Shown here: one piece after another, positions 47,603-54,906 of the stretch | Layout of the letters: every line of letters begins with the position of its first letter | Numbering within the stretch: position 1 is the stretch's first letter | DNA from: Thermococcus sp. 18S1 | GTDB lineage: Archaea > Methanobacteriota_B > Thermococci > Thermococcales > Thermococcaceae | NCBI RefSeq assembly: GCF_012027645.1 | Contig: NZ_SNUU01000001.1 | Span: 62,001-126,000, forward strand | DNA: 64,000 bases | Reading direction: 5' to 3' | Made by a program: the position numbers and the translations under genes | Notes under the pieces: generated by a model | The model's input: the letters and a program-made list of their open reading frames with translations, nothing else | Told to the model about the DNA's origin: nothing | The model's database searches: none

Positions 47603-48604
47603 TCATTCTTTTTCCACTTTTGTGAACGCAATCAGCTCTTCTTCCCCCGTTCTTATCCTGTAGGCGCGCATCTTCCCGTCAAGGAAGTCCCTGATTGCCA
47701 TCAGGGTCTTTTCGCGCCCGATCAGAAGCTCCCGGGCTTCGTCGACGCTCACCGCCTCAAACCTCAGCCTCTCCCCCGGCCGGCTCTGTGCAACGATGGG
47801 AAGGTCTGCCGTTGAAACGACGGCTATCTTAGCGTAGCCGCCGGTCGTCTGGGCGTCCCGGAGCATCACTATTGGCTTTCCGTTGGCCGGAACCTGAATC
47901 GAGCCGGTCGGTATGGCGTCCGTCACTATCCCTGCGCCCTTCTCCGAGTGCTCTATGGCCTTTCCATCGAGACGGTAGCCCATCCTGTCGGACTCGGGAG
48001 TTACGGTATAGGACTCGCTCAGGAAGGTCTCTATCCCCTCCCCGGTGAAGTGGTCGAGGTTGGGGCCGAGAACGACGCGGACGGTCTTTTCCTTCGCTGA
48101 ATAGTCCGGCCTCAGTTCCGGAGGGAGGTATCTCCCATCCTTCCCGGTTAGTACCGAGTAGCCGAGGTTCAGAACATCCCCGGCCTTCAGAGACCTTCCA
48201 AGCCCGGCCTTGGGATAGGCCGAGCAACTCCCGAGGAGCGGCTCACACTTTATCCCGCCGGCGAAGGCTATGTAGCCGTAGAGCCCGTTTTTCAAAGCGC
48301 CAACCTCAAGGACGTCACCCCTCTTTGCCCAGTGGCTCATCCAGGGTTCAATGGGGGCGCCGTTGAGTCTGAGGTCAACGTCCCCAACAACAGCAAAAAC
48401 GCAGGAAGCGTTGAACCTGAGCGTTGGGCCGGCGAGGAGGAACTCAAGGAGAGGCGCATCACCGGGGTTTCCGACGAGGTAGTTAGCTATCCTCGCGGAG
48501 TAATCGTCCATGAAGCCGGAAACGGGGACACCAAGCTTTCGGTAGCCTCTCCTGCCGGAGTCCTGAACGGTGAGGAGTGAAGGGACGTTGAGGAGCTCAA
48601 TCAT
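47603..48604 (-). CDS. pxpC: 5-oxoprolinase subunit C (biotin-dependent carboxyltransferase-like)
   Basis: A 333-residue member of the KipA/PxpC family, with the pattern [21 protein letters not shown] at the start and a [10 protein letters not shown] turn, then [18 protein letters not shown]. With PxpA and PxpB it opens 5-oxoproline (pyroglutamate) at the cost of ATP to yield glutamate, a metabolite-repair step important at high temperature, where glutamine cyclises. ATG 48604 is preferred over ATG 48610; both lie inside the end of pxpB, so translation is coupled. Confidence 0.9.
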
Positions 48605-49292
48605 CTCCATTCCCCCATTCGGCCTCGTAGAGCTCCCGGAACTCCGACTCATCGATGGGGACGAACCTCACCATGTCGCCGGGCCTTAGAAGGGTCGGGG
48701 GTTCCCTTTCAGGGTTGAACAGTCTGAGCGGAGTCCTTCCAATGAGCCTCCAGCCGCCGGGGCTTTCGAGGGGATAGATGCCAGTCTGCTTCCCGGCTAT
48801 CCCCACGGAGCCGGCTGGGACCTTTAAGCGCGGTTTTTCAAGTCTTGGGGTTGCTATACGCTCGTCCATGCCGCCGAGGTATGCGAAACCCGGCAGAAAG
48901 CCAAGGAAGTAGACGCGATAGGTCGACTTGGAATGTATTTCAATCACGTCATCGACGGTCAAGCCGTTGTGTTCCGCCACAAAGCCGATATCCGGGCCGT
49001 ACTGGCCGCCGTAAACTACTGGAATCTCAACGAGCCTCCCCTTGAAGGATTCCGGCGGAACCTGGAGGAGGGGCTCAATGGCCGCCTTCACCTCTCTGAA
49101 GTTCGCCTTGAGGGGGTCGTAGAAGACGTAGACCGTCGAGTAAGCCGGCACTACCTCAACGAGCCATTCAAAGCCAGCCCTCTCCATCGCATCGGCAATG
49201 GCATGGACTCTGGCGTTTACTTCCTCGTCGATGACCTCGCCGAAGGACACGAGCAGCGCTGAATCGCCGGCGGCTTTTATCGTTGGTTGCAT
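48597..49292 (-). CDS. pxpB: 5-oxoprolinase subunit B
   Basis: A 231-residue KipI/PxpB family protein, paired with PxpC in many genomes, sometimes as one fused chain. The signature segments [33 protein letters not shown] and [16 protein letters not shown] are present. GGTGAGACC precedes ATG 49292. It overlaps pxpC by eight bases and follows pxpA by four. It has no hydrolase on its own; it works in the complex. Confidence 0.92.
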
Positions 49293-49296
49293 GGTC

Positions 49297-50064
49297 TCAC
49301 CGCACGATCTCCCTCATCGGCACTACCCTAACGCCCTCCTCCTCAAGGACCCTCCTTATCCGCGCTGCAATTTCGACGGCCTTCGGGTTGTCTCCGTGGA
49401 CGCAGATGGAGTCAGCCCTCAGCTCGACCCACTCCCCGTTTATTGCCCTGACTCCACCGTCCTTGACCATCGAGACCACGCGCTCGGCTATCGCTTCCTC
49501 CTCATGTATGACCGCTCCCGGCTTCGAGCGGGGGACGAGGGTTCCGTCGGGGTTGTAGGCCCTGTCCGCGAAGACCTCGTGGGCTACCTTAACCCCCATC
49601 TCTTCTGCTATTTCAGCCGGCCTTGAGCCGGAGAGGGCCACGAATATCAGGTTCCTATCGAAGTCCGCTATTCCCTCTATCACAGCTCTTGCGAGTTCTT
49701 CCTCCTTCACGAGGGCGTTGTAGAGCGCCCCGTGGGGCTTGACGTGCTGGAGCTCGATTCCCTCCGCCCTTGTGAAGGCGTAGAGGGCGCCGATCTGGTA
49801 GAGGATGTAATTGCGAGCTTCCTCCGGTGAGAGCTTCATGTACCTCCTCCCGAAGCCGAGCAGATCCGGGTAGCCGGGGTGCGCCCCAACGGCAACGCCC
49901 TTCTCCTTCGCGAGCCTGACCGTCATTCTCATGACTATCGGGTCACCGGCGTGCCAGCCGGTGGCGACGTTGGCGCTCGTGATGTAGTTCATGACCTCCT
50001 CGTCGAGGCCGAGCTTGTAACGGCCGAAGCTCTCGCCGAGGTCCGAGTTCAGGTCAACCTTCAT
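49297..50064 (-). CDS. pxpA: 5-oxoprolinase subunit A (LamB/YcsF)
   Basis: A 255-residue LamB/YcsF family protein. The start [17 protein letters not shown], then [31 protein letters not shown] and [10 protein letters not shown] match PxpA; histidine and aspartate in these segments are the probable metal site. ATG 50064 has GGTGGTGCGG before it; a longer reading from 50082 uses the start of that site. It is first of the pxpABC operon. Confidence 0.92.
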
Positions 50065-50123
50065 CCGCACCACCGGCTTCATTTCGACGGAAATCTAAAA
50101 AAGGGTTTCTCCGAGTTTAGGCC

Positions 50124-50749: not shown

Positions 50750-51148
50750 TCAACCTTGGAGGTAGTAGGATATAAGCTTTCTCAGCTCGACGTTGCGCTC
50801 GGGCTTCATTCTCAGAAACCTCTTAAGCCCGCTGTTCTCGGCTATTAAGCCTGAAAGCTCGATGGCGAGCACCTTGTTGTCCTCGCTAAGGCCGTAGGCC
50901 TTGAAGCGGAGCGGGGCGTACTCCTTCTCAAGCTCCCACGTCCTTTCCTCAAGCTCTCTTGCCTTCTCCTCAAGTCCCTCAAGGCCGCCCTTGGACTTCT
51001 TGAATTCCCCCTTTAGGGCTATCTCGATGACCCTCTCGGGAGAAACGCCGTACCTCTCACTGAGGCGCTCTATCTCGCCCCACAGCTCTTCGTCTATCTC
51101 GACCTCAATTTTTCCAAAACCCCTGTTCGGCTTGATGATGAGCTTCAT
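50750..51148 (-). CDS. ribbon-helix-helix protein with coiled-coil extension
   Basis: A 132-residue protein. Residues 10-45 (KIEVEIDEELWGEIERLSER, then YGVSPERVIEIALKG) look like a ribbon-helix-helix DNA-binding fold; residues 55-120 are a charged coiled coil. ATG 51148 follows GTGAACGGG. Two GTTCA/TGAAC palindromes lie in the 40 bases before it, a likely self-operator. It is the last gene of a four-gene run with an AlkA-type glycosylase. The family is not otherwise recognised. Confidence 0.65.
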   Translation of the reverse strand: MKLIIKPNRGFGKIEVEIDEELWGEIERLSERYGVSPERVIEIALKGEFKKSKGGLEGLEEKARELEERTWELEKEYAPLRFKAYGLSEDNKVLAIELSGLIAENSGLKRFLRMKPERNVELRKLISYYLQG

Positions 51149-51150
51149 CC

Positions 51151-51190
51151 CGTTCACACTCCATGAACGACCCGTTCACGATCCGTGAAC
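51151..51190. promoter_or_regulatory. tandem palindromes before the ribbon-helix-helix gene
   Basis: CGTTCA-N7-TGAACG at 51151-51169 and GTTCAC-N5-GTGAAC at 51174-51190. Their centres are 22 bases apart, two helical turns, so bound dimers would sit on one DNA face. They lie between the coiled-coil gene's last codons and the next gene's start. Confidence 0.6.
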
Positions 51191-51508
51191 TTTCTCAAGC
51201 TCTCTCCTTTTCTCCTCCACCTTCTTTCTGAGCTCTTCGTTTTCCTTTCTTAGTCTCTCACGCTCAGCTGTCATGAGCCCCTTGTCCCGCAGGGCCTTCT
51301 CGTAGAACTCCCTGAGCTCCTCTATCTCCCCTTCCATCTTCCGGAGTTTTTCCTCGAGTTTTGCGATCTTCTCAAGAAGAACCCCCTCGCGCTCGGCCTT
51401 CAGGGTATCCTCCACCCGAGGAAGGTTTTCACGGAGGAGGGCGTTTATGTCGCGCCCCTTCAGGGACTTGAATTTCTCCTTTTCCAAAATGATCTTAATC
51501 TCGCTCAT
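51176..51508 (-). CDS. hypothetical coiled-coil protein
   Basis: A 110-residue protein with a short N-terminal region (MSEIKIILEKEKFKSLKGRD) that also could take a strand-helix shape, followed by one long charged coiled coil (about residues 40-108). ATG 51508 overlaps the stop of the AlkA-type gene (ATGA), so it is coupled, and GGAAGCGAAA precedes it. It could assemble with the coiled coil of the next gene's product; that is inference. Confidence 0.6.
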   Translation of the reverse strand: MSEIKIILEKEKFKSLKGRDINALLRENLPRVEDTLKAEREGVLLEKIAKLEEKLRKMEGEIEELREFYEKALRDKGLMTAERERLRKENEELRKKVEEKRRELEKVHGS

Positions 51509-52335
51509 TTTCGCTTCCTCTCCATCTCGGTCTTTCTGTCGTAGCAGAGGATATAGAACGCCAGAAGCCCCTTCCACTTCCCGTAGGGTTCTATAAGCTC
51601 CCTCACATCTTTCTCCTGTACTTCCTTAACGCGCTTCCCAAAAATCTTCGCTATCCCTCTCCTGAGCCCGAGGTCTCCTGCGGGATAAACGTTCTTTCTA
51701 AGACCATACGCGAGGAAAAGCTCGGCGCTCCACTTTCCTATGCCCCGAAACTTTGTGAGGTACCTGATGGCCTCATCAACGCCCCAGTCCCAGAGTTCAA
51801 GGTCGAGCTTTTTGGCAAGATAAAGCTCCGTCAGGGACTTTATGTAGCCCGCTCTATAGCCGAGCTTGGCCCCTTTCAGCTCCTCCTCGCCTAGGGACGC
51901 TATCCTCTCGGGGGTGGGAAATGCGTGTAAGTCCCCCACCTGCCTGCCCGCGAGCTTCACGAGGTTCGCGATAGTTCTCTGGGCGAATTCGAAGCTGACC
52001 TGCTGCTGGGCTATCGTTTCAACCAACGCCTGGTACGTGCCCGGTGAGGCGGGAACGGTGAGGCCATGGAACTCGTCAATCAGAAAGGAAAACGGGGAAT
52101 CGCTTATCTCGGCGTAGAAGGAATCCAGATCGGTTTCGAGACCGAGGACAAAGGACAGCTTTTCCTTCGCGGACCTCCTTTCCCCTCTGCCCCACGAATC
52201 GGGAAGAATGAAGTCCCCTCCATCGTAGCCGGCGATACCGCTCTCAAAAGCCTGGTAGAAAACACCGTCTTCGAACTTCCACGTTCCGTTGCGTATCATC
52301 TCGTGCGTGGTCTTCCTCAGGTCAATCTCAGCCAT
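51505..52335 (-). CDS. AlkA-type DNA glycosylase (HhH-GPD family)
   Basis: A 276-residue base-excision enzyme. The helix-hairpin-helix region FRGIGKWSAELFLAYG (about 196-210) and the catalytic aspartate in AGDLGLRRG (Asp221) match AlkA and 3-methyladenine glycosylase II. The lysine that would make it an OGG1-type lyase is not in the hairpin, so a monofunctional enzyme acting on alkylated bases is likely. No iron-sulphur loop. It overlaps the upstream 99-residue gene by 19 bases and the downstream coiled-coil gene by four. Confidence 0.88.
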   Translation of the reverse strand: MAEIDLRKTTHEMIRNGTWKFEDGVFYQAFESGIAGYDGGDFILPDSWGRGERRSAKEKLSFVLGLETDLDSFYAEISDSPFSFLIDEFHGLTVPASPGTYQALVETIAQQQVSFEFAQRTIANLVKLAGRQVGDLHAFPTPERIASLGEEELKGAKLGYRAGYIKSLTELYLAKKLDLELWDWGVDEAIRYLTKFRGIGKWSAELFLAYGLRKNVYPAGDLGLRRGIAKIFGKRVKEVQEKDVRELIEPYGKWKGLLAFYILCYDRKTEMERKRK

Positions 52336-52616
52336 CGGTCGAGCCTAACGGGGTTCTCCCTTATATCCTTTAGGGTCGAGACGTAGAGCCTCTTACCGTC
52401 AATGGAGCGTTTGATTTGAAGCTCGCCCCTTTCCTCCAGGAAGCGCATGGCCTCTTTAACCTCTTCCGCGCGGACGTCGAAGTTCTCCCTCAGGAAGTCC
52501 CAGTAGGGTTCGTGCAGGCTGTACCTGGCGGCCGCACGGACGAGCTCCCAGGCTCTCGCGGCCTTTTCATCGCCCCTGGCGACGCGGTAGAGCTTGGCCA
52601 GAGTTTTCAGCCCCAT
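52317..52616 (-). CDS. hypothetical small protein, possible winged helix
   Basis: A 99-residue soluble protein with a pattern (YWDFLRENFDVRAEEVKEAM, then RFLEERGELQIKRSIDGKRL) that could be a winged-helix fold: helices then a beta hairpin. TTTATA is 29 bases before ATG 52616, giving a nearly leaderless message. It heads the AlkA/coiled-coil run and diverges from the NfeD protease gene. Confidence 0.6.
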   Translation of the reverse strand: MGLKTLAKLYRVARGDEKAARAWELVRAAARYSLHEPYWDFLRENFDVRAEEVKEAMRFLEERGELQIKRSIDGKRLYVSTLKDIRENPVRLDRWLRLT

Positions 52617-52668
52617 GTTACTGAATTCCCACCCAACATATAAATCACTTTTGGAAGGCAGGCAAAAG

Positions 52669-52707: not shown

Positions 52708-54060
52708 ATGCGACCCAAGGTTGCGCTGGCGGCGCTGGTGCTCTTCGTAGTGCTCGTTCTTCAGCCGGGAGTGCACGCACAGAGGAACACGGTTTACGTT
52801 GCAAAGGTTGATGGAATGATAACCGGCTATACAGTTGACCAGTTCGACAGATACATAAGCAGGGCAGAGGATGCGAATGCCTCCGCAATAATCATCGAGC
52901 TGAACACCCCCGGCGGCAGGGCCGACGCCATGCAGGAGATAGTAACGCGGATCGAGAACGCCAGGGTTCCGGTTATCATCTACGTCTACCCCTCGGGCGG
53001 AATGGCAGCATCCGCGGGAACGTACATCGCCCTGAGTTCTCACCTCATCGCAATGGCCCCGGGGACCGTGATAGGGGCCTGCCGACCGATACTAGGCTAC
53101 GGACAGAACGGGAGCATAGTGGAGGCGCCGCCGAAGATAACCAACTTCTACGTGGCCTACCTCCGCGAGCTGGCCCGGATGAGCGGCAGGAACGAGACGC
53201 TCGCGGCGGAGTTTATAACCGAGGACAGGAGCGTAACCCCCGAGGAGGCCATGAAGTACGGGGTCATTGAGGTTATAGCAACCGACCTTGACGACCTGCT
53301 CCAGAAAGCCGACGGTATGGAGACAAAGATGCCCGTCAAAGGCAGGGGGAAGGTAGTGCTGCACATCAAAAACGCAGACGTGGTTTACCTGGAGCCATCA
53401 TTCAGGGACACGGTCGTGAAGTACATAACCGACCCAACCATAGCGTACCTGCTTCTGAACATAGGATTCATAGGGCTGATATTCGGCTTTTTAACCCCCG
53501 GCTGGCACGTGCCGGAAACCATAGGGGCAATACTCCTGGTGCTCGGCCTCATCGGACTGGGCTACTTCGGATACCGCAGCGCGGGCCTGATACTCATAGT
53601 CCTGGCGATGATATTCTTCATAGCCGAGGCGCTGACGCCGACCTTCGGCCTGTTCACAGTCGCGGGGGTTGTAACCTTCGTCATAGGGGGCATTCTGCTC
53701 TTCAGCGGAACCGGAGCTGGAGGTGAGTACTTGGTGACCGGTGAGACGTACTCGGTACTGCGTATAGCGATACTGGTAATGGCAATACTGCTCGGGCTGT
53801 TCTTCCTCTTCGGTGCGGCCACCGTGGTCAGGGCCCACAGGAAAAAACCCGAGGCGGGGAAGGAGGAGCTCATTGGGGAAGTTGGAAAGGTCGTGGAAGA
53901 CGTCGACCCCGAGGGCGTCGTCAAGCTTCACGGCGAGCTCTGGAAAGCGGAGAGCAGGGATGGAAGCAAGATTCCAGTCGGGGAGAAGGCCAAAGTTGTT
54001 GAAGTCAGAGGATTAACCCTCATTGTCGAAAAAGTTGGGGGAGTAAAGGAGGGAGAATGA
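52708..54060 (+). CDS. NfeD-type membrane serine protease (1510-N family)
   Basis: A 450-residue ClpP-class membrane protease that cuts the C-terminal region of stomatin. A signal peptide (1-24) leads a protease domain with catalytic Ser102 (GGMAASAGTY) and Lys143 (APPKITNF), a Ser-Lys dyad. Five or so helices (about 225-370) and a C-terminal OB-like NfeD domain (about 390-445) follow. The stomatin gene begins one base beyond its stop. It is the standard operon pair of Pyrococcus and Thermococcus. Confidence 0.94.
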   Translation: MRPKVALAALVLFVVLVLQPGVHAQRNTVYVAKVDGMITGYTVDQFDRYISRAEDANASAIIIELNTPGGRADAMQEIVTRIENARVPVIIYVYPSGGMAASAGTYIALSSHLIAMAPGTVIGACRPILGYGQNGSIVEAPPKITNFYVAYLRELARMSGRNETLAAEFITEDRSVTPEEAMKYGVIEVIATDLDDLLQKADGMETKMPVKGRGKVVLHIKNADVVYLEPSFRDTVVKYITDPTIAYLLLNIGFIGLIFGFLTPGWHVPETIGAILLVLGLIGLGYFGYRSAGLILIVLAMIFFIAEALTPTFGLFTVAGVVTFVIGGILLFSGTGAGGEYLVTGETYSVLRIAILVMAILLGLFFLFGAATVVRAHRKKPEAGKEELIGEVGKVVEDVDPEGVVKLHGELWKAESRDGSKIPVGEKAKVVEVRGLTLIVEKVGGVKEGE

Positions 54061-54906
54061 ATGGCCATAACGGCAAGTACCGTGGTTATTTCGATTGTTT
54101 TGTTGTTTGTTTTGATTATACTGGCGACGGCGATAAAGATAGTCAAGGAGTACGAGAGGGCGGTTATATTCCGCCTCGGTAGGGTCGTGGGAGCAAGGGG
54201 TCCCGGACTGTTCTTCATCATTCCGATATTCGAGAAGGCGGTCATAGTGGACCTCCGTACGCGCGTCCTCGACGTGCCGGTGCAGGAGACCATAACCAAG
54301 GACAACGTTCCAGTAAGGGTCAACGCGGTCGTTTACTTCCGCGTGGTTGAGCCTGTCAAGGCGGTTACCCAGGTGGCGAACTACATAATGGCCACCAGCC
54401 AGATTGCCCAAACGACCCTGAGGAGCGTCATCGGCCAGGCACACCTCGACGAGCTGCTGAGCGAAAGGGAGAAACTTAACCTTCAGCTCCAGAAAATCAT
54501 CGACGAGGCCACGGATCCATGGGGAATAAAGGTCAGCACGGTTGAGATCAAGGACGTTGAGCTGCCGAGCGGCATGCAGAGGGCCATGGCCAGGCAGGCC
54601 GAGGCAGAGCGTGAGAGGAGGGCCAGGATAACCCTGGCGGAGGCGGAGCGCCAGGCCGCCGAGAAGCTCCGCGACGCCGCCGAGATAGTGTCCCAGCACC
54701 CGATGGCCCTTCAGCTCAGGACTCTCCAGACCATAAGCGATGTTGCCAGCGACAAGAGCAACGTGATCATCCTGCCGCTCCCGATGGAGATGCTCAAGCT
54801 CTTCAGGAGTCTGGCGGACACCGCGGAGATGGCCAGGGTAAAGCTTGAAAAGGAAGTCCAGGAGAAGCTGGAGGCCGAGGCCAGGGCAAAGGCCGGGGAG
54901 GAGTGA
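54061..54906 (+). CDS. stomatin/SPFH-domain protein (slipin)
   Basis: A 281-residue membrane-associated SPFH protein: one N-terminal helix (7-25), the SPFH domain (about 30-180) and a coiled-coil C terminus that oligomerises. The segment [11 protein letters not shown] near residue 238 corresponds to the site cut by the 1510-N protease in Pyrococcus. ATG 54061 follows the NfeD stop with GGAGGGAGAATGA upstream. A T tract ends the operon. Confidence 0.94.

Follow-up and report, generated by a model that had tools for sequence, protein, structure and literature searches.

A tandem palindrome array at an operon junction of Thermococcus, probably the operator of an absent HTH-MNT/HEPN cassette

The DNA analysed here, referred to as the window, is a 64,000-nucleotide (nt) stretch of the genome of Thermococcus sp. 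18S1 (G000; G and L numbers designate genomes and loci), and the element in question is a pair of palindromes at the join between a gene for a coiled-coil protein and a gene for a ribbon-helix-helix (RHH)-like protein. Judged from the comparison of related genomes, the two palindromes are probably (we put this at roughly 0.72) the operator array of a mobile toxin–antitoxin (TA) cassette, kept beside an empty slot; the cassette encodes an MNT nucleotidyltransferase with an N-terminal helix-turn-helix (HTH-MNT) and a HEPN protein. On its sequence, the window is the empty allele, in which palindromes 1 and 2 are kept and the cassette is absent.

A palindrome array linked to an HTH-MNT/HEPN cassette

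Both palindromes are 17 bp long, follow the pattern GTTCA-N7-TGAAC and are read on the minus strand. Palindrome 1, GTTCACGGATCGTGAAC, lies at positions 51174..51190, and the TGA of its right arm is the stop codon of the coiled-coil gene; palindrome 2, GTTCATGGAGTGTGAAC, lies at 51152..51168 and ends 3 nt before the ATG of the RHH gene. Their centres, 51182 and 51160, are spaced 22 bp apart. The first-pass annotation had reported two GTTCA/TGAAC palindromes at this distance, and they proved to be exact and beyond chance: the 39-bp tandem pattern is present in 47 of 94 Thermococcaceae genomes, as against 0/94 for the reversed control. In its own genome (1.99 Mb) the single pattern occurs at four places, two of which form the tandem described here, and the reversed pattern at none. 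At 36 array-less joins, the best match in the 150 nt preceding the RHH gene reached 11 of the 20 arm bases.

The array goes with the HTH-MNT gene: each of the 29 strong homologues of HTH-MNT (E ≤ 2.9e-46) has a pair of palindromes with a 22-bp period at most 75 nt upstream, matching at 19 or 20 of the 20 arm bases. According to hand counts, which also apply to the NMNAT junction below, 40 of the 55 tandem arrays lie at the coiled-coil/RHH join, 12 at a junction between DUF62 and NMNAT genes, one precedes another HTH-MNT gene, and two are orphan. At the NMNAT junction the HTH-MNT/HEPN genes are present in eight of the loci read (L153–L160), and the array is retained in others without the cassette. 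The loci of this junction without a strong HTH-MNT match, which is how we define cassette-less there (a motif test missed L160), comprise 17 with a pair at 17–20 of 20 arm bases, three with one recognisable palindrome and 24 with none; eight loci of the set gave no NMNAT start, and L176 repeats L162. Cassette-less pairs upstream of NMNAT, after a DUF62-like gene, are found in L161–L164, L166, L169, L178, L179, L189 and others. The window genome has no palindromes at its NMNAT junction (L177).

We read 88 orthologous coiled-coil/RHH joins, leaving out L076, which is cut by a contig end, and counting L046 as the second locus of genome G060. Both palindromes are exact and without an insert at 23 joins, one exact palindrome is left at nine, and 18 carry the cassette; the remainder consists of 30 loci with the coiled-coil gene and no exact palindrome (the degenerate arrays of L021 and L054 among them) and eight without the coiled-coil gene. 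The cassette, about 0.8–1.0 kb long, is sited between the array and the RHH gene, and its insertion point corresponds to positions 51149..51151 (minus strand) of the window, which are empty here. It brings palindrome 3, again 22 bp further, followed by the genes for the 202-aa HTH-MNT and the HEPN protein. A representative from a loaded relative matches PF01909 (MNT, 2.1e-8) and PF05168 (HEPN, 2.1e-23), and the GSX10DXD motif is readable in the MNT sequence of loaded relatives. The copy in L049 is broken and that in L008 is split into two frames. All 18 loaded loci share one junction, and in nearly every empty locus with two palindromes the junction measures 3–4 nt; on the tree of the main Thermococcus clade, loaded loci are interspersed with empty ones. 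In other genera with a coiled-coil match, the coiled-coil and RHH genes mostly overlap or abut without palindromes, with the exception of L050, which has the cassette. A search of the window genome gave no HTH-MNT homologue except a weak match to the MNT part only (2.3e-4).

On this basis, the two palindromes in the window would be repeats 1 and 2 of a three-repeat operator array of a class II HTH-MNT/HEPN cassette, with a period of 22 bp. Each of the 18 loaded joins has GAAAA or AAAAA as the spacer leading to palindrome 3 and ATAAA as the core of this palindrome, and the HTH-MNT start codon lies 13 nt beyond it. In loaded relatives palindrome 3 would thus overlap an A-rich, TATA-like promoter just before the start codon, and the antitoxin would repress its own operon by binding the array through its N-terminal winged helix. 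The first 76 residues of HTH-MNT, used as a profile, match solved winged helix-turn-helix (wHTH) regulators (best 1.6e-5), and Pfam HTH matches are below cut-offs. The AlphaFold model of the protein is of too low quality for use (pLDDT, the predicted local distance difference test score, 41.4). The recognition helix begins alike in both cassette types.

In the empty allele, palindrome 1 supplies the coiled-coil stop codon, and palindrome 2 would carry in its loop the Shine-Dalgarno sequence of the RHH gene, the likely candidate being GGAG at 51159..51162 (minus strand), 10 nt before the ATG. The four columns of GGAG show two Fitch changes over 30 empty loci as against nine over 17 loaded loci; the presence of GGAG in 30/34 empty and 12/18 loaded loci differs suggestively, not significantly (Fisher p = 0.076). 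A second GGAG stands at the cassette end, at most 20 nt from the RHH ATG, in 11 of the 18 loaded loci.

The cassette has moved recently between three genomes. We compared fourfold degenerate sites of G023, G047 and G070 (loci L008, L018 and L010) in three pairs, with DUF62, a gene at another locus, as the reference. Matches within the cassette were 84/88, 84/86 and 80/84 in MNT and 50/52, 46/51 and 48/51 in HEPN; in the flanking genes they were 17/29, 7/25 and 12/27 (coiled-coil) and 26/44, 35/45 and 23/42 (RHH), and in DUF62 81/117, 41/100 and 38/98. The three cassettes are 93–100% identical per 60-nt bin. Since the fourfold sites are nearly identical in the cassette and not in the flanks or DUF62, the cassettes were recently transferred among these species. 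The identity profile of L010 and L018 stays at 87–100% also downstream of the RHH gene, and we considered whether the species are simply close and their flanks fast-evolving; setting the fourfold sites against those of DUF62 upheld transfer instead. Other pairs lack this excess in the cassette: G071 and G070 resemble each other less there than in DUF62 and the coiled-coil gene, a pattern consistent with exchange, and G040 and G061 diverge about equally in the cassette and elsewhere. Trees of insert and flank (17 loci, L049 left out) have 5 of 14 splits in common. The cassette would accordingly behave as a presence/absence module passed between Thermococcus species.

Conservation of the arms and competing explanations

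The arms are kept over most of the main Thermococcus clade, and the loops and the spacer vary. We counted changes in 30 empty loci (L012, L013, L032, L038 and the array-less loci left out) and in 17 loaded loci, that is, without L029, which has lost palindrome 1 and has a shifted register and which is counted among the 18 loaded loci for the GGAG and fourfold work. In the empty set, the palindrome 2 arms have 0.5 changes per site, compared to 5.58 at 12 fourfold sites of the RHH gene, with 5.2 in the spacer and 3.57 in the palindrome 1 loop; in the loaded set, the arms have 0.1 changes per site compared to 3.4 at 15 fourfold sites. In the clade of the window (five empty species), there are no changes in 20 arm sites as against 0.67 per fourfold site (P = 1.4e-6; this and the other permutation and Poisson values take sites as independent and assume the empty state throughout each clade), and a five-species clade with a shared 4-nt junction likewise has none, as against 0.82 per fourfold site. 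The tested clades were picked by eye from the tree, and that of the window includes the loaded L008, whose cassette was apparently acquired recently. The stop codon of the coiled-coil gene falls within palindrome 1 or ahead of it (L003), or the gene runs through both palindromes; since the arms are kept whatever its reading frame, the constraint acts on the nucleic acid.

Thus, the proposal that the palindromes are operator-like was borne out by arms that are kept while loops and spacer vary; the RHH protein as their binder was not, since the array follows HTH-MNT in 29 of 29 cases. The alignment of the join in related genomes, which had been suggested as a check on whether the palindromes are kept, showed arms retained over most of the main Thermococcus clade and no exact palindrome at 38 of 88 loci.

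Several observations weigh against an operator array of the cassette or against its active retention. The identities of insert and flank correlate (r = 0.80), and much of the inheritance therefore looks vertical. One empty clade (L021, L023, L026 and L054) has decayed, with a neutral-like six changes in 20 sites; L012, L013 and L032 have a single palindrome left, and L024, L031, L047, L052 and L057 have lost the array. GGAG in palindrome 2 is common in loaded loci too, as the 12 of 18 given above show, though it starts no gene there. The TATA match at palindrome 3 is imperfect when set against the promoter elements of T. onnurineus, for which PMC5316973 gives TTWTAW boxes and A-rich TFB recognition elements (BREs). 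Two orphan arrays with similar upstream sequence, L167:1167-1205 (G086) and L168:1208-1246 (G093), belong to two other genera, and the 2.4 kb read around them holds no MNT or HEPN match. Finally, an active reader of the array in the window genome would not be HTH-MNT, as this genome has no strong homologue and the HTH proteins read there differ in the recognition helix. A search there for a solo regulator with the winged-helix profile of HTH-MNT gave 11 matches at E ≤ 1; of the four loci read, three have HTH proteins whose recognition helix is a different one, without SKG-VS, and we dropped this candidate.

Six stretches on five viral contigs (L221–L226) also fit the tandem pattern, and some of them may be unrelated operators; they have no MNT match, and their HEPN matches are at chance level only.

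Why the array is retained is a matter of more tentative explanations. Cassette-less Thermococcus might actively keep the operator arrays of absent TA cassettes at fixed operon junctions, as domesticated regulatory sites for another protein, as existing homology arms through which the cassette can enter and leave, or for the instant silencing of a newly arrived operon by its antitoxin; we regard this as possible and rather doubtful. In the clade of the window, the arms may still be bound by some other factor or be kept through exchange with loaded alleles. We give an equally tentative standing to the explanation that the array is a pure relic, a neutral left-over of lost cassettes that seems conserved owing to recent loss or allele exchange. 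It overlaps with the operator-array reading and differs from it only in why the array is retained. The decayed clade and the losses, which are in five nested loci, speak for a relic, as do the intermixing of loaded and empty loci on the tree and the recent transfer among G023, G047 and G070. The unchanged arms of the window clade and of the clade with the shared 4-nt junction, at the fourfold rates given above, speak against it.

Much less probable is the reading of the first-pass annotation, an internal operator of the RHH protein, in which RHH dimers control the level of the coiled-coil pair by binding both palindromes. It is favoured by a site directly before the RHH gene, by the retention of the arms in cassette-less genomes, and by the beta-alpha-alpha order of an AlphaFold model; the model is of low confidence (pLDDT 59.8), so the RHH fold is not proved. 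The RHH protein of the window matches RHH_1 at E = 0.81, and one of the 12 family members scanned does so at 0.001. RHH orthologues are present in 93 of 94 genomes, yet the exact palindrome is absent from many of their loci (all eight without the coiled-coil gene and 30 of the 80 with it). On the predicted DNA-contact strand, which we locate by assuming the RHH fold and the contact positions of CopG-type proteins, position 15 is Glu in 73 of 89 orthologues and position 17 in 80 of 89, similarly with and without palindromes. Many genomes have a second, weaker RHH match, mostly 33–47% identical. At the 18 paralogue loci read, 12 of which have a coiled-coil match just upstream, there is no exact palindrome; at positions 15 and 17 of these paralogues, Thr/Val and basic or polar residues predominate, and the mean net charge of residues 1–47 is +3.6, compared to −0.6 in the orthologues. 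Together with the arrays at NMNAT junctions and beside HTH-MNT genes elsewhere, these data led us to reject the RHH operator as the principal reading in favour of an array that follows HTH-MNT. The associated idea that the coiled-coil pair is set separately from the repair enzyme found no support either: by eye, the empty join shows no BRE-, TATA- or other promoter-like sequence, and a TATA-like box stands upstream of the first gene of the operon.

Downstream of a gene for a Cys-rich protein, we observed a coiled-coil/RHH pair of paralogues whose ribbon is more basic (L090 and G000:C1:1802246-1802650).

An RNA element, in which the palindromes fold in the mRNA as two small hairpins or one long one and gate the RHH Shine-Dalgarno sequence, is slightly less probable still. 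The position of GGAG within the palindrome 2 loop agrees with it, as do the foldability of the join as one hairpin (−3.7 kcal/mol at 85 °C) and the G-U pairs kept in seven of nine alignment cells where the outer arm pair of palindrome 2 has changed (four of them from one related clade). The single hairpins, however, have 0 to −0.5 kcal/mol at 85 °C, and the long hairpin pairs 0.82 of cells with no double changes; double changes within palindromes number three in empty and none in loaded loci. Moreover, conservation of the arms is no weaker in loaded genomes, in which palindrome 2 starts no gene, and arrays at the NMNAT junction are also found far from a start codon. With covariation not clear and folding weak at 85 °C, we set RNA hairpins aside.

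A site-specific landing site, at which a recombinase recognises the palindromes and inserts the cassette, is just as improbable: the common junction of the 18 loaded loci, the 3–4 nt junctions of the empty ones and cassette edges close to the palindromes and the RHH start fit it, but no recombinase-like open reading frame (ORF) was seen by eye in the seven cassettes listed, and the edges of transfer vary by tens of bases, as expected from homologous recombination. The transfers start about 30 nt upstream of palindrome 1 or inside it and end at +15 to +43 in the RHH gene, and in L015/L019 identity reaches further into the flanks. Because these edges vary, homologous recombination is likelier than a dedicated recombinase, and the cassette is probably exchanged by recombination in its conserved edges, which are formed by the array and, at the other end, by the start of the RHH gene.

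The operon around the join

The four overlapping or abutting genes and both palindromes were found where the first-pass annotation had placed them; the gene order on the minus strand is small wHTH-like protein, HhH-GPD glycosylase, coiled-coil protein and RHH/coiled-coil protein. The likely operon promoter is a TATA-like box read by eye 5' of the first gene, TTTATATG (52637..52644, minus strand), its element type being taken from the T. onnurineus work (PMC5316973). The first ORF (52317..52616, minus strand) encodes a 99-aa protein that is possibly a winged helix: a Pfam and NCBIfam scan gave no match above cut-off, and Pfam matches are sub-threshold only. The second gene (51505..52335, minus strand) confirms the AlkA-type glycosylase proposed earlier, having the HhH-GPD domain (PF00730, 3.8e-13) and, as its closest solved sequence, the 3-methyladenine glycosylase 2jhj (2.6e-29). 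The third (51176..51508, minus strand, ATG at 51508) is an ORF for the 110-aa coiled-coil protein, for which the same scan gave no family above cut-off; 80 of 88 loci have a coiled-coil gene upstream of RHH. The last (50750..51148, minus strand, ATG at 51148), defined by its ORF and the orthologue survey, encodes 132 aa with an RHH-like N-terminal domain and a coiled coil.

The overlap of the glycosylase and coiled-coil genes (51505..51511, minus strand) is a second slot of this operon, empty here. In some relatives, according to gap sizes and ORFs, it holds a 55-aa protein and a PIN (VapC-like) cassette: L014, L030, L033, L035, L040, L043, L045 and L051, with L035, L045 and L051 judged from gap size alone. 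The PIN protein matches PIN_3 at 1.6e-14. This cassette looks decayed in L006, L028, L048 and L049, and a TATA-like sequence was seen by eye ahead of it. We rejected sharp-edged movement for the PIN cassette, as 28 pairwise profiles showed no jump like that of HEPN/MNT; in L040/L051 identity is somewhat higher inside than outside.

Next to the operon, 52708-54906 contains an NfeD-type membrane protease gene (Pfam), followed by what we take to be a stomatin-like gene. On the other side, three minus-strand genes at 47603-50082 resemble, by their sequence, those of the 5-oxoprolinase subunits PxpA/B/C.

Relation to known toxin–antitoxin systems

TA cassettes are generally studied in genomes that carry them. 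At the two operon junctions described here, mostly within one genus, the control region of such a cassette can be compared in its loaded, empty and decayed forms, and its palindromes persist in several lineages from which the genes are missing. This offers a testable case of how a cassette of this kind can come and go in a housekeeping operon that stays intact, and of whether the host can put a TA operator to its own use. For class II HEPN/MNT modules, the array also supplies a predicted DNA target. If the arrays are indeed actively kept, the junctions would be standing docking ports for TA cassettes inside housekeeping operons.

The cassette resembles class II HEPN/MNT systems (HepT/MntA), as described in PMC7641770, in the order of the MNT gene before the HEPN gene, the GSX10DXD motif and the PF05168 HEPN family. 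It differs from them in the N-terminal HTH of its MNT and in the phased palindrome array, and the window holds two palindromes of the array and not the genes. The authors of that paper (2020) knew of no biochemical study of class II. In Shewanella oneidensis, the MNT of the pair SO_3165/SO_3166 acts as a repressor by binding its own promoter, in which there are two palindromes (PMC4621449). Palindromes at the promoter of the HEPN–MNT genes are thus common to both cases, with promoter and binding here predicted; the Shewanella palindromes are dissimilar and the MNT is without a predicted DNA-binding domain, whereas here the palindromes are alike and 22 bp apart and the MNT has an HTH.

Among the matches listed from the open-licence literature, judged by their titles and the opening lines of abstracts, we recognised no paper on orphan TA operators or on these palindromes. 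Autoregulated type II TA operators have tandem palindromes at the promoter of the antitoxin gene. Unlike such operators in general, the array described here also persists where the TA genes are absent, and it does so at two separate junctions of the chromosome.

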